Positions 34,621-39,474 are shown, counted from the first letter of the stretch. The stretch is 64,000 nt of DNA from Candidatus Nitrospira nitrosa (GCF_001458735.1 NZ_CZQA01000011.1:117483-181482); one strand, 5' to 3'. Notes: generated by a model not told the origin, from the sequence alone. Numbers and translations: made by a program.

Positions 34621-34872
34621 CTACTTACCTGGTCCAAAGAGTTGAGCCACGAGCTGATCGCGACTGATGTCAAAATGGGTTGCGACATCAGTAAGAATTG
34701 CCGAAAGCGTTCCAATACGGAGCGGTGAATGTTGTGGGATTGTGATGTGGTGCTCGCCATGTTGAAGCGTCGTGAGGCGAAGATGGCTACCGGCCTGGCG
34801 AGTAATGGAATAACCGAGCTGGCGAAGTGCTTGGGCGAGATCATTTCCAGACAGATCGCGAGGAAGCCTCAT
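34621..34872 (-). CDS. hicA: HicA-type toxin (mRNA interferase family)
   Basis: An 83-aa protein of the HicA/YcfA dsRBD-like fold: LSGNDLAQALRQLGYSITRQ, the active-site His in QAGSHLRLT, and HHITIPQHSPLRIGTLSAIL. HicA toxins cleave mRNA when not neutralised by HicB. Its ATG overlaps the antitoxin stop by 4 nt (ATGA), giving antitoxin-first order. Length is typical. Confidence 0.85.
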   Translation of the reverse strand: MRLPRDLSGNDLAQALRQLGYSITRQAGSHLRLTTLQHGEHHITIPQHSPLRIGTLSAILTDVATHFDISRDQLVAQLFGPGK

Positions 34873-35075
34873 ACGGCGATAACTTCTTCGCGAACATGGT
34901 GGAGGCGAACAATTTTTGGGCCCTTTCCTTCCTCAAAGTGACAGCGGACTGCATCCCTGACTTTTTCAGGCAATTCTGCCAGGGTATCCGCTTCAGTAAA
35001 AATAGATTGGCCTAGTGCGCGGGCGGTAAATCCACCATCAGGGGCTTCTTCGACAAGGAAGATCAATTCGCTCAT
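34869..35075 (-). CDS. hicB: HicB-like antitoxin
   Basis: A 68-aa protein with the partial-RNase-H-like HicB pattern: IFLVEEAPDGGFTARALGQS, IFTEADTLAELPEKVRDAV, and FEEGKGPKIVRLHHV. It is shorter than HicB proteins with an added HTH/RHH DNA-binding domain, so autoregulation may need another factor. It should bind and silence the adjacent HicA. Confidence 0.8.
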   Translation of the reverse strand: MSELIFLVEEAPDGGFTARALGQSIFTEADTLAELPEKVRDAVRCHFEEGKGPKIVRLHHVREEVIAV

Positions 35076-35287: not shown

Positions 35288-35518
35288 GTGACTCCTACCA
35301 AATCCCCTCCAACAAGAAATTGGCAGCTGAGTGGCATGATTGCGCGATGGGTGGGAATCATTGCCATTGCCCTCGGCTTCGTCATCGGCATGTACGGTCT
35401 TGATCATCCTGACTCACATTGGTTACAGACTGCATTGGGGTTACTCGTGACTGGGATGGTGGCCCAAGGCTATGCGCTCTACTGCTCGATCAAACGGATG
35501 CAGCAAAGAAACTACTGA
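35288..35518 (+). CDS. Small two-TM membrane protein
   Basis: A 76-aa product starting at GTG with two hydrophobic helices (MIARWVGIIAIALGFVIGMY and LQTALGLLVTGMVAQGYALY) and a basic tail SIKRMQQRNY, an inner-membrane hairpin. No family recognised and no strong ribosome-binding site. It separates HicAB from the two-gene cassette. Confidence 0.45.
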   Translation: MTPTKSPPTRNWQLSGMIARWVGIIAIALGFVIGMYGLDHPDSHWLQTALGLLVTGMVAQGYALYCSIKRMQQRNY

Positions 35519-35620
35519 CCAGCGTAGCTGCATCTATTTCCCTATCAATTTCCATTAACTGACCGGACTGGAGTATTCTTGAGCGTCAACGTCGACGCAT
35601 TTTGTTGTTGTGAGTATGCC

Positions 35621-36358
35621 ATGGGGAAGAAGCGGGTTTCTAATCCTCCGGTACCTACATCAAGCGGTGGGGCTAGGCTGTCAAGATCTCAACGAGCCTT
35701 GGACAAGAAGCTTTCTGATATTGATGGAAATAGAATTGAGCAAGGGCAAGAGGCTTACGGGCTTTCTCGAATTTATCAAGGCTCCATCTATGTTATGGGA
35801 GACTTGGTGAATGTGGATCGTTTCGCTCATGCCGCTCATGGTTTCCGAGAATTAATGGAGAAGTTGGCACGTAGTGTTCCTTCAGCTCAAGTGCCGAGTT
35901 CAAAAGGAAGCCCACCCACGTTGAACGCAATGGTTAAGGACATAGGTAAAGCATGGGGGAAAGCAAAGAGGAACACCAAGAATCTAAATGGTGGGAAATG
36001 GGAGGGAGTAATTGATCCCCACATCGCAAAGTTTCTTGGATCCTTAGAGCATTTTTTTAATGCCGCAAACACTTTTAAGCCCCCCAAAGCTCATCAGGGA
36101 GAGAATTTGCTGAAGTACACAGATTTTCAATGGTACCCTCTTCCGGAACAGATTGAGCGGATCCGTATTCAAGAGTGGAGAGCCTATGATGAATACTTCC
36201 AGAGAATTGCCCATCACGGATCTCTAGCTAGTGAAGATGAGTTCGCAAGATATGTAAGAAGCTTTGAAGAATTCCTATTGGCCCGTTTAATCCCCAAGAC
36301 TAGTCGTTCAAAGAGGACATTACTTGCGATAATTAAAGAAGGCGAAGGAAATGTCTAG
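35621..36358 (+). CDS. Unknown protein A of the two-gene cassette, 245 aa
   Basis: Not recognised. From ATG 35621 (MGKKRVSNPPVP) the product has a basic, Ser/Pro-rich N terminus, then a helical body (VDRFAHAAHGFRELMEKLAR, FLGSLEHFFNAANTF) and a C-terminal helical segment IRIQEWRAYDEYFQRIAHHG followed by EFARYVRSFEEFLLARLIPK. The RIAHHG segment recalls, but does not match, the Rx4-6H signature of HEPN nucleases. There is no Walker motif, TM or signal peptide. Base composition is clearly lower in GC than flanking genes (about 40% in one 60-nt sample). The 3' end overlaps gene B by 8 nt, so the pair is coupled. A TTG at 35579 could add 14 residues. Confidence 0.75.
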   Translation: MGKKRVSNPPVPTSSGGARLSRSQRALDKKLSDIDGNRIEQGQEAYGLSRIYQGSIYVMGDLVNVDRFAHAAHGFRELMEKLARSVPSAQVPSSKGSPPTLNAMVKDIGKAWGKAKRNTKNLNGGKWEGVIDPHIAKFLGSLEHFFNAANTFKPPKAHQGENLLKYTDFQWYPLPEQIERIRIQEWRAYDEYFQRIAHHGSLASEDEFARYVRSFEEFLLARLIPKTSRSKRTLLAIIKEGEGNV

Positions 36359-39260
36359 CCGTGAACTCGTCAAGAAGGCGCTTCAGGCTATAGAGCGGCC
36401 AGTAGACTTTGAATTCTTCTTTAGTGAATTGAAGTCGCCAGATTGGCTGGAACCTCTCGCCGCAGAGGGCGTGTTTGACAAGCCGTATCCTCCAGTTGAG
36501 GAGAAAGAATGGATCAGTTTTCCCATGTGGCCCCCCTCAAGGTATCTGGTACGGATGGCTGAGAAAGCGCCGGATCTTGTTGCACAACTTGCACTACGAA
36601 TCCCAGAAACTGCTAATGTCAGAATCCACGAAGACCTTACTGATGCTTCCCTTGCGATGCCCCCAGATATTGCTCAAAGAATAGTTCCCAAGGCGATAGG
36701 GTGGGCTAAGTCCAAGTATCAGCTTCGACTCGCAGACAGGCTCGGAAAATTGATCAGTCATCTCGCTCATGGGGGACAAATTGAGAAGGCGTTAGACCTA
36801 GCGACGGCATTGTTAGAGCTGCACAAAGAGCAGAAAGAGCCGATAGAAGGCTTTGAAGGTGAAAAGCTCTCATATCCACCCGAACCAAAATCAGTTCTTT
36901 CTGATTGGAACTATGAGCGTATTTTAAAGGAGCATATCCCCGATCTGGTTTCAGCAGAGGGATTGAAGGCGCTCGATTTACTTTGTGATCTGCTTGAGCA
37001 GGCCATTGTTTTCTCGGGTGGGGACGCAGACACAGAGTCAGAAGACTATTCATATATTTGGAGAACTGCAATCGAAAGTCACAGCCAGAACGAAGGGCGG
37101 GATTTAAGAGGAAGTCTGGTGTCGGCTGTACGCGATGCAAGCGAAGCAATCACCGCTGCTAACCCAATGCTCGTCCGAGAGGTTGTCCGCTGTGTGCGTT
37201 ACAACTCGCATAATGCGACCCCTCGCAAATGGAAAGTGTTCGACAGGATCGCGCTCCACATCATAAGGGAACGTCCGGACGCGGTAAGCGACCTTATTCG
37301 GGGAGAACTGTTGAAGCCTACAAATTTTGACGATACAGGTATCTCGCATGAGTATCGCCTCCTTTTAAAAAAAATGTTTGGAGTACTGGACTTGTCAGAT
37401 CAGCAGATCATTCTAGGTTGGATTGAGGCTGGGCCTCCTGACGTGGATGGATGGGTACAGCGTGTCACGGAAGCAACTGGCGAGGCCCCGAGCGTAGAAG
37501 ACACGGAAAAGTATAAGAGGGCCTGGCAACTTAAGAGGTTGGCCGTCTTTAGTGAGTCGCTTTCTGAGCCGTGGGTAGGTCGATACCGCGCTCTAGTGGA
37601 GGAATTTGGTCCACCCGAATATCCAGAATTCTCTTTCTATTCGATCGGCGTTACGAGAGGACCCATGAGTCCCAAGAGGGCAACTGACCTGTCGCAGATG
37701 CAAGAAGATGAACTTTGCCGATTCTTAACGGATTGGAAGCCAGGAGAAGAAGTGCTCGGCATTGTGCCGTCCCGAGAAGGATTGGGGCGAGAGATCAGTC
37801 AAATGGTGGCGAACGATCCTGCAAAGTATGCTCCGCTTGCACCGTCGTTCGAAGGACTTGACCCCACCTACGTCCGGTCATTCCTGCAAGGGTTTCGAGA
37901 TGCGATTGGGCAAAAGAAGCCGTTTGCATGGGCCCCGGTAATCGACTTGTCATATTGGGTAGTAACTCAGGCAAGAGAAATTGCTGGTCGCAAAGTTGAC
38001 AAGTGGGGGACGGATCCGGATTGGAGTTGGGCACGTAAGACTGTGGCAGGTTTGCTCTCGTCAGGCTTTTTGGAAGGTGGTGGTTCTATCCCATGGCATT
38101 TGCGAGAACGGGCGTGGGCAGCTCTCATCCCCGTTACCAATGATCCACACCCTGAACCTGAGGACGAAGTCGAAAGAATAGGGCTCAGCGCCGACCCGTC
38201 ACATGTTGCGATCAACAGCGTTCGAGGGGAAGCTATCGAGGCCGTAGTTCGCTATGCCTGCTGGGTCAAGCGAAATCTATCTAACGAAGGCAAGAAGAGA
38301 TTAGCTGGGCAGGGGCTAAAGTCGATGCCAGAAGTTCGCGATGTGCTGGATGCACATTTAGAACCAACAAGAGATCCCTCACTGGCGATTCGATCTGTAT
38401 ATGGTCTTTGGTTCCCCACACTTCATTGGTTAGATGACAAGTGGGCAATTCAAAATGTTAGGAAGATCTTTCCCGAGACGACCGGGTTGCGCAAGTACAA
38501 AGACGCTGCATGGGACGCCTACATCATTTTCTCAACGCCATACCTAAACATGTTGGATGTCCTGCGTGCACAATACTCAAGAGCTGTCGCAGAACTTAAC
38601 AGTTCATTAACCATTGAGCATGGGGTAGGAGATCCCAAAGAGAAATTGGCCGAGCATTTGATGACCTTCCATTGGCACGGCAAACTGCCTTACCGAGGGA
38701 CATCGGGGATTCTAGGAAAATTCTTCTCAATCGCTACCGATAAGCTCCGCGGGCACGCGCTTGAGGTCCTGGGGCGATGGATTCATTCCTCAGGAAAAGT
38801 ATCTCCTGCGGTTATTGAACGACTCCGTAAGCTTTGGGAAGGGCAGGTTGCAAAGGCTAAGGACGATCCGGCTCAGAACATAAGAACCTTGACAGCATAT
38901 GGATGGTGGTTTGCATCGGGTAAATTCCCACAGAAATGGTCAATGGCCCAGCTGACGATAGTTCTTCGACTGGCTAAGACGATAGATGTGGACTATTTGG
39001 TCCTCGAGCGTCTCCTCGTTGTTAGTCGTATTATGCCTCTGGAGGTCATACGCTGTCTTCGTTTGTTCTGCGAGGCTTCAGAGCAACAGTGGGAGATCTC
39101 AAGTCGGCTTGATGCAATCAAGAAGATTCTTTCCCCCATGTTGAAAGGTAAGAGAAGTGCAGTGAAGGAAGAGGCCATTGATCTCGCTGAATTTCTTACA
39201 GCGAAGGGATTTCGATACTTTGACGACCTGCTTGATGATGCATATCAGGCCGCTACCTAA
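36351..39260 (+). CDS. Unknown protein B of the two-gene cassette, 969-aa helical-repeat (solenoid) protein
   Basis: Not recognised by name. The protein is almost entirely helical with irregular ~35-45-residue units, as in HEAT/ARM-like solenoids. The N terminus has FFSELKSPDWLEPLAAEGVF then FPMWPPSRYLVRMAEKAPD, and the C-terminal third has RGHALEVLGRWIHSSGKVSP, ERLRKLWEGQVAKA, AYGWWFASGKFPQKWSMAQL and a final LAEFLTAKGFRYFDDLL. From memory, similar units form the sensor half of large anti-phage SIR2- and STAND-type proteins, but here no SIR2, P-loop, TIR, nuclease or protease domain precedes them. It starts 8 nt inside gene A, lies in lower-GC DNA next to HicAB, and meets a minus-strand small gene tail to tail. 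Confidence 0.8.
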   Translation: MSSRELVKKALQAIERPVDFEFFFSELKSPDWLEPLAAEGVFDKPYPPVEEKEWISFPMWPPSRYLVRMAEKAPDLVAQLALRIPETANVRIHEDLTDASLAMPPDIAQRIVPKAIGWAKSKYQLRLADRLGKLISHLAHGGQIEKALDLATALLELHKEQKEPIEGFEGEKLSYPPEPKSVLSDWNYERILKEHIPDLVSAEGLKALDLLCDLLEQAIVFSGGDADTESEDYSYIWRTAIESHSQNEGRDLRGSLVSAVRDASEAITAANPMLVREVVRCVRYNSHNATPRKWKVFDRIALHIIRERPDAVSDLIRGELLKPTNFDDTGISHEYRLLLKKMFGVLDLSDQQIILGWIEAGPPDVDGWVQRVTEATGEAPSVEDTEKYKRAWQLKRLAVFSESLSEPWVGRYRALVEEFGPPEYPEFSFYSIGVTRGPMSPKRATDLSQMQEDELCRFLTDWKPGEEVLGIVPSREGLGREISQMVANDPAKYAPLAPSFEGLDPTYVRSFLQGFRDAIGQKKPFAWAPVIDLSYWVVTQAREIAGRKVDKWGTDPDWSWARKTVAGLLSSGFLEGGGSIPWHLRERAWAALIPVTNDPHPEPEDEVERIGLSADPSHVAINSVRGEAIEAVVRYACWVKRNLSNEGKKRLAGQGLKSMPEVRDVLDAHLEPTRDPSLAIRSVYGLWFPTLHWLDDKWAIQNVRKIFPETTGLRKYKDAAWDAYIIFSTPYLNMLDVLRAQYSRAVAELNSSLTIEHGVGDPKEKLAEHLMTFHWHGKLPYRGTSGILGKFFSIATDKLRGHALEVLGRWIHSSGKVSPAVIERLRKLWEGQVAKAKDDPAQNIRTLTAYGWWFASGKFPQKWSMAQLTIVLRLAKTIDVDYLVLERLLVVSRIMPLEVIRCLRLFCEASEQQWEISSRLDAIKKILSPMLKGKRSAVKEEAIDLAEFLTAKGFRYFDDLLDDAYQAAT

Positions 39261-39421
39261 TGCGGCTTAAATTGGTGCCTCCTGTATAGTTGATTTTCCC
39301 ACAGATATATCGGCGTGCCATACATCTTGGCGGTTTTTCGAGCCGCTTTGGCCGCTCGGCGGAGTGCACGTCCGACGTTCTGAACGAATCGCGTATTTTC
39401 CGTCTGTTGCTTGGTCTTCAT
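39257..39421 (-). CDS. Small basic protein with altered C terminus
   Basis: A 54-aa product (MKTKQQTENTRFVQNVGRAL, then RRAAKAARKTAKMYGTPIYL). The Arg/Lys-rich helix followed by GTPIYLWEN resembles a widespread family of tiny proteins ending WENGKVVxxxP; here the tail reads WENQLYRRHQFKPH instead. GAGGTG precedes the ATG at 39421. Its stop overlaps the stop of the 969-aa gene, so the changed tail may mark the right boundary of the inserted cassette. Confidence 0.5.
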   Translation of the reverse strand: MKTKQQTENTRFVQNVGRALRRAAKAARKTAKMYGTPIYLWENQLYRRHQFKPH

Positions 39422-39474
39422 GTGGCTCACCTCATCAGCTGTGGGCAAGTCTAGTCAACCGCCCACTGTCCCAA

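Follow-up and report, generated by a model that had tools for sequence, protein, structure and literature searches.

Genes at the locus and the variable slot

The window analyzed here is a stretch of 64,000 nt from Candidatus Nitrospira nitrosa, and all positions are counted from its start. Two coupled genes lie on its plus strand: a partner gene (35621..36358, ATG at 35621, stop at 36358), whose 245-aa all-helical product is the proposed effector, and a sensor gene (36351..39260, ATG at 36351, stop at 39260), encoding a 969-aa helical-repeat protein homologous to DSR1 (defense-associated sirtuin 1) and devoid of the SIR2 domain. The two overlap by 8 nt (36351..36358, plus strand), and the coordinates, lengths and overlap reported in the first-pass annotation were all exact. 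The block is also distinct in composition, as had been noticed before, with a GC content of 49.2% (35531-39293), the 5-kb flanks having 55.2 and 55.3%. It has the lowest GC of its length, none of 603 equal-length windows across the 64 kb being lower.

The pair fills a slot of variable cargo (35519..39293, left edge at 35518-35525 and right edge at 39294), delimited by synteny breaks with seven sister genomes. Synteny with the sisters runs up to 35518-35525 (in one of them only to 35145) and is resumed at 39294 (39313 in L076). In the same slot the sisters carry a TIR-domain protein (two of them), a ParE-type toxin, patatin-like proteins, or unknown genes. The TIR-domain protein of L072 (7859-9634, minus strand) and L077 (9641-11413, minus strand) has 590 aa and a zinc-finger-like N-terminus; the assignment was confirmed by Pfam in one sister and by near-identity, judged by eye, in the other, and the gene is a candidate defence gene itself.

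To the right, the pair abuts a small gene (39257..39448, minus strand) for which a changed tail had been described, and alignment with the sister genomes bears this out, as all seven align from the right edge of the insertion and not leftward of it. The C-terminal tail has been replaced there, the protein ending in ...WENGKVVAKKP in the sisters versus ...WENQLYRRHQFKPH in the window (read from sequence). To the left, the neighboring HicAB pair of the first-pass annotation could be retained in part: HicA (34621-34872, minus strand) is recognized by Pfam (E = 2e-10), while the HicB label of the adjoining frame (34869-35075) comes from position only, because that frame has no Pfam match. The region covering HicA and this frame (34621-35075) fails to align in several sisters (L076, L077), and both seem to be variable among them too. 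Beyond the variable slot and HicA, we saw no obvious multi-system defence island in the genome of the window, a point that weighs against a defence role.

Another genome, G257, carries a copy of the pair (L003) on a different contig from bioB. The copy probably occupies the same site as the window pair, since the two contig ends involved adjoin the same flanks. The pair is intact, and comparison with this copy shows both genes to be under purifying selection (dN/dS of the partner 0.22, of the sensor 0.18). The synonymous divergence differs more than twofold between the two genes (dS of 0.64 for the partner and 0.28 for the sensor), which looks as if one of them had been exchanged by recombination.

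A DSR1-type sensor without SIR2

The PADLOC Dsr1 profile PDLC04166 matches the window sensor with E = 5.8e-36, residues 125-746 being aligned to positions 455-1019 of 1227, a region that corresponds, on the profile coordinates, to DSR1 beyond its SIR2 domain. A longer fused relative (L025) covers positions 304-1214 of the same profile, nearly all of DSR1 minus SIR2. The NCBIfam Dsr1 model (NF041818) gives the window sensor 25.3 bits (E = 2.9e-6) versus a curated equivalog cut-off of 1400, which sets it apart from DSR1 proper. No SIR2 domain was detected in either window protein (Pfam, PADLOC, NCBIfam), nor a P-loop NTPase by Pfam, the latter being present only in haloarchaeal relatives, and the sensor has neither a Pfam enzyme domain nor an enzyme motif.

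The AlphaFold2 model of a natural partner-sensor fusion (L027) is an almost all-helical solenoid, mostly with pLDDT above 80. Together with the lack of a Pfam enzyme domain, this agrees with the earlier description of the 969-aa protein as one long helical array without enzymatic motif. In Foldseek, the fusion model comes closest to Avs4 with a phage portal (8dgf, E = 8e-6). This match supports a fold type and not kinship or descent, because the TM-score is 0.36 and importins and other HEAT-repeat proteins follow close behind. A sequence search of the PDB gave no match for the sensor, the partner, or the divergent helical domain described below. No sensor relative was found on viral contigs, and plasmids yielded nine weak sensor relatives and no partner relatives.

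The helical partner

In a first alignment of the partner, conservation was nowhere sufficient to derive a pattern for scanning. The partner family as defined in this analysis comprises 33 aligned sequences, in which H73 is found in 32, R76 in all 33, and residue 77 is E or D in all 33, forming an HxxR[E/D] motif (codons 73-77 of the window partner, with H73, R76 and E77, at 35837..35851, plus strand). A second histidine, H198, belonging to an AH motif (36212..36214, plus strand), is present in 32 of 32, the remaining sequence being gapped there. In the AlphaFold2 model of the partner (pLDDT 78.6, all helical), H73-E77 fall in the helix spanning residues 67-85 and H198 lies near the end of helix 176-199. 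Two histidines, one arginine and one acidic residue would make up an active-site pattern, and their near-invariance suggests a metal-independent hydrolase or nuclease. The enzymatic activity of the partner is proposed from these residues and from its position, because searches by Foldseek and by sequence in the PDB retrieved no solved or characterized lookalikes (for the partner, no Foldseek match at E<=0.001). Pfam has no family above threshold for the window partner. A divergent helical domain found fused to sensors (alignment A5) is related to the partner family (hhalign E = 1.1e-7).

Linkage and distribution of the pair

Of 296 Nitrospirota genomes, 16 have the sensor and 10 have the partner, which in all 10 lies at the sensor. 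The partner-profile matches in 301 Chloroflexota genomes lie at a sensor in six of seven cases, the seventh being weak (E = 9e-5) and located in an unrelated 477-aa protein, and the same holds for four of four matches in 297 Acidobacteriota genomes. Overall, the 20 confident partner-profile matches in about 890 genomes of these three phyla are, without exception, beside the sensor or fused to it, and the pair is thus conserved as the unit that the first-pass annotation took it to be. Of five Acidobacteriota genomes with the divergent domain, four have it as a fusion with the sensor and the fifth keeps only a short broken piece. One of the Acidobacteriota fusions (L121, 1-2544, minus strand) apparently has two tandem divergent helical domains before the sensor.

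A pattern scan of GTDB genomes, run with the sensors, added loci from Proteobacteria, Bacillota, Acetothermia, Actinobacteria, Poribacteria, and one Methanosarcinales archaeon; relatives of the sensor occur in many bacterial phyla and in archaea. The partner gene is found directly upstream of the sensor (L003-L006, L008, L009, L030-L032, L037, L038, L054-L058, L125-L127) or fused to its N-terminus (L007, L010, L027, L128), and the divergent version is found fused (L024, L025, L028, L029, L033, L119-L121 and, by eye, L018). On the Poribacteria contig (L030, 5035-7861) the sensor is split into two frames and the partner is intact, either by decay or by an assembly error.

The defence-gene surroundings anticipated by the first-pass annotation were found, with relatives located among restriction-modification genes and the slot of the window variable in the sister genomes. 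Three relatives lie directly behind hsdS (L025, L028, L030), one adjoins SfiI (L010) and one an N6_N4 methylase (L033), two are preceded by a methylase with HNH (L056, L057), another is near DUF1156 and AIPR genes (L031), and one sits between genes for an Eco57I-type methylase and an SNF2 helicase (L037); hsdM is also among the neighbors of relatives. Some of them (L025, L028, L030, L037, L056, L057) are separated from the restriction-modification genes by tiny gaps or overlaps, in the manner of an add-on. This placement in restriction operons resembles that of the anticodon nuclease PrrC, whose gene lies within a type I restriction locus.

Exchange of effectors before a common sensor

Three kinds of content were found in the slot before the sensor: the helical domain, either encoded by a coupled gene or fused at the N-terminus, a SIR2 gene, or a STAND-type NTPase. 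SIR2 genes are found there in L011, L012, L014, L016, L023, and L026, identified by Pfam in L023 and from sequence features in the other five. The partner profile had no match in the genomes of L011, L012, L014, L023, and L026, and helical domain and SIR2 occurred together in none of the genomes checked with the profile, that is, the two replace each other. The STAND-type NTPase precedes the sensor in relatives on haloarchaeal plasmids (L019, L020, L021). Two of these (L020 and L021) have apparent N-terminal membrane helices, and the three are possibly an Avs-like variant acting at the membrane.

In a tree of 34 sensors, forcing those paired with SIR2 into one clade lowered the log-likelihood by 62 and was rejected by the AU test (p = 0.0007), and one of them (L023) is nested in a group of helical-domain fusions with 99% support. 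As the SIR2-paired sensors are thus not a single clade, an exchange of effectors between sensors is well supported, although how many exchanges took place is uncertain, given the long branches and the choice of the tested groups by genomic context.

Comparison with known systems

The closest known system is DSR1, with which the window pair shares a large helical sensor region by homology, the location of an effector N-terminal to it and a defence context, the difference being that a separately encoded helical protein of 245 aa, from another family, takes the place of the SIR2 domain. DSR2 likewise has its effector at the N-terminus and an all-helical C-terminal sensor, which binds the phage tail tube protein, whereupon the NADase is released (PMC10973363). 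However, the window sensor matches Dsr1 models only and there is no SIR2; according to the literature, the C-terminal regions of DSR1 and DSR2 have limited sequence similarity. With the Avs/STAND proteins there are two points in common: haloarchaeal relatives have a STAND-type NTPase ahead of the sensor, and no fold in the PDB matched the fusion model better than Avs4. The window pair itself has no NTPase, and the TM-score is low. In the literature searched, to which bioRxiv preprints did not belong and few subscription journals did, we found no published DSR1-type sensor with an effector other than SIR2.

Alternative readings of the pair

The first-pass annotation had taken an RIAHHG segment of the partner as HEPN-like, and the partner could accordingly be a degenerate HEPN RNase, the module then joining a HEPN effector to a DSR1-type sensor. 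HEPN domains are defined by an Rx4-6H motif that closes helix 3, frequently accompanied by Ex3[KR] in helix 2, and some accepted families do without the arginine (PMC3710099). An all-helical protein with a histidine ending helix 176-199 and E/Dx3[K/R] in the earlier helix 67-85 recalls this arrangement, and one family member matches DUF4145 weakly (E = 0.28). However, the arginine precedes the conserved histidine in only six of 32 sequences (5-7 residues ahead), the K or R of E/Dx3[K/R] is found in 17 of 33, hhalign against two HEPN sets (PF05168 and DUF4145) scored no better than the reversed controls, and neither Pfam (no HEPN match) nor Foldseek (no confident PDB match for the partner) recovered the family. 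HEPN membership of the partner is not supported by these comparisons, and we regard a HEPN effector as unlikely. A closer lead is pP_pnuc_1 (PF18165), a predicted pPIWI-associating nuclease, of which the partner could be a distant member and the effector a nuclease of that kind, neither of the two families being established. The L010 fusion exceeds the gathering score of PF18165 (27.9 versus 26.3 bits), while the window partner (16.3 bits), L003, L004, and L032 stay below it. Around HxxRE the profiles match locally over 30 columns (E = 2e-4), and the two members examined (L059 and L080) have an LRE motif and a later TH in common with the partner (read from sequence). Against it, just one third of the profile aligns (30-40 residues), the near-invariant H73 is absent from both L059 and L080, no pPIWI gene was seen nearby, and pP_pnuc_1 is itself a predicted nuclease, so that we find this assignment somewhat unlikely. 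L059 (520-1953, plus strand) is a Chloroflexota protein of 477 aa ending in a pP_pnuc_1-like part with the LRE, and has no sensor in the stretch examined.

The roles of the two proteins could also be the reverse, the partner being an antitoxin-like adaptor or inhibitor and the large protein the one that kills, as the small gene comes first and is translationally coupled, like in many toxin-antitoxin pairs. We hold this to be quite improbable: at least 10 relatives have the partner and the sensor in one protein, and natural fusions argue against toxin-antitoxin; it is swapped for SIR2, a known effector; and the sensor carries no sign of an enzyme in its motifs or Pfam domains. To a housekeeping or otherwise non-defence gene pair we give hardly any credence, the probable presence of the G257 copy at the same site being the only point in favor. 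The DSR1 homology of the sensor and the restriction-modification neighbors of relatives speak against it, and a housekeeping origin was rejected on the patchy distribution (sensor in 16 of 296 Nitrospirota genomes) and the slot that varies in seven sisters, features that do not fit a housekeeping family at fixed chromosomal sites.

A probable DSR1-like module with another effector

The explanation that we consider likely is a two-gene anti-phage module that follows the plan of DSR1 but has a different weapon, and in which a DSR1-type sensor works with a helical toxic effector. The first-pass annotation had already suggested a stand-alone sensor with a small effector partner, and this idea is strengthened by a sensor equivalent to DSR1 minus SIR2 and a partner, coupled or fused, in the place of SIR2. 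By analogy with DSR2 and Avs4, the sensor would probably bind a structural protein that the phage produces while infecting the cell. The partner would be held to it by translational coupling and by a direct contact, which is suggested because natural fusions exist, and would stand in for the SIR2 NADase. On sensing, it may, by analogy with DSR2, be released or assembled, and would then act as a toxic effector that halts the infected cell, a presumed case of abortive infection.

More tentatively, and with somewhat more doubt than confidence, we propose that the partner may represent a new class of immune effector enzyme, distinct from SIR2, TIR, and HEPN, with an HxxR[E/D]...AH active site. It would be linked to DSR1-type sensors in bacteria at large and in one archaeon or more, and its frequent insertion into restriction-modification operons would add a further layer of defence to them.

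The description of such pairs is a gain for annotation, as no more than half of a Dsr1 model covers them and Pfam has no separate family for their effector. It makes directly testable which targets the DSR1-type sensors recognize and what the helical domain does. The DSR1 sensor emerges as a reusable detection module, since the same solenoid occurs with a SIR2 NADase, with a STAND NTPase, or with an uncharacterized helical effector.
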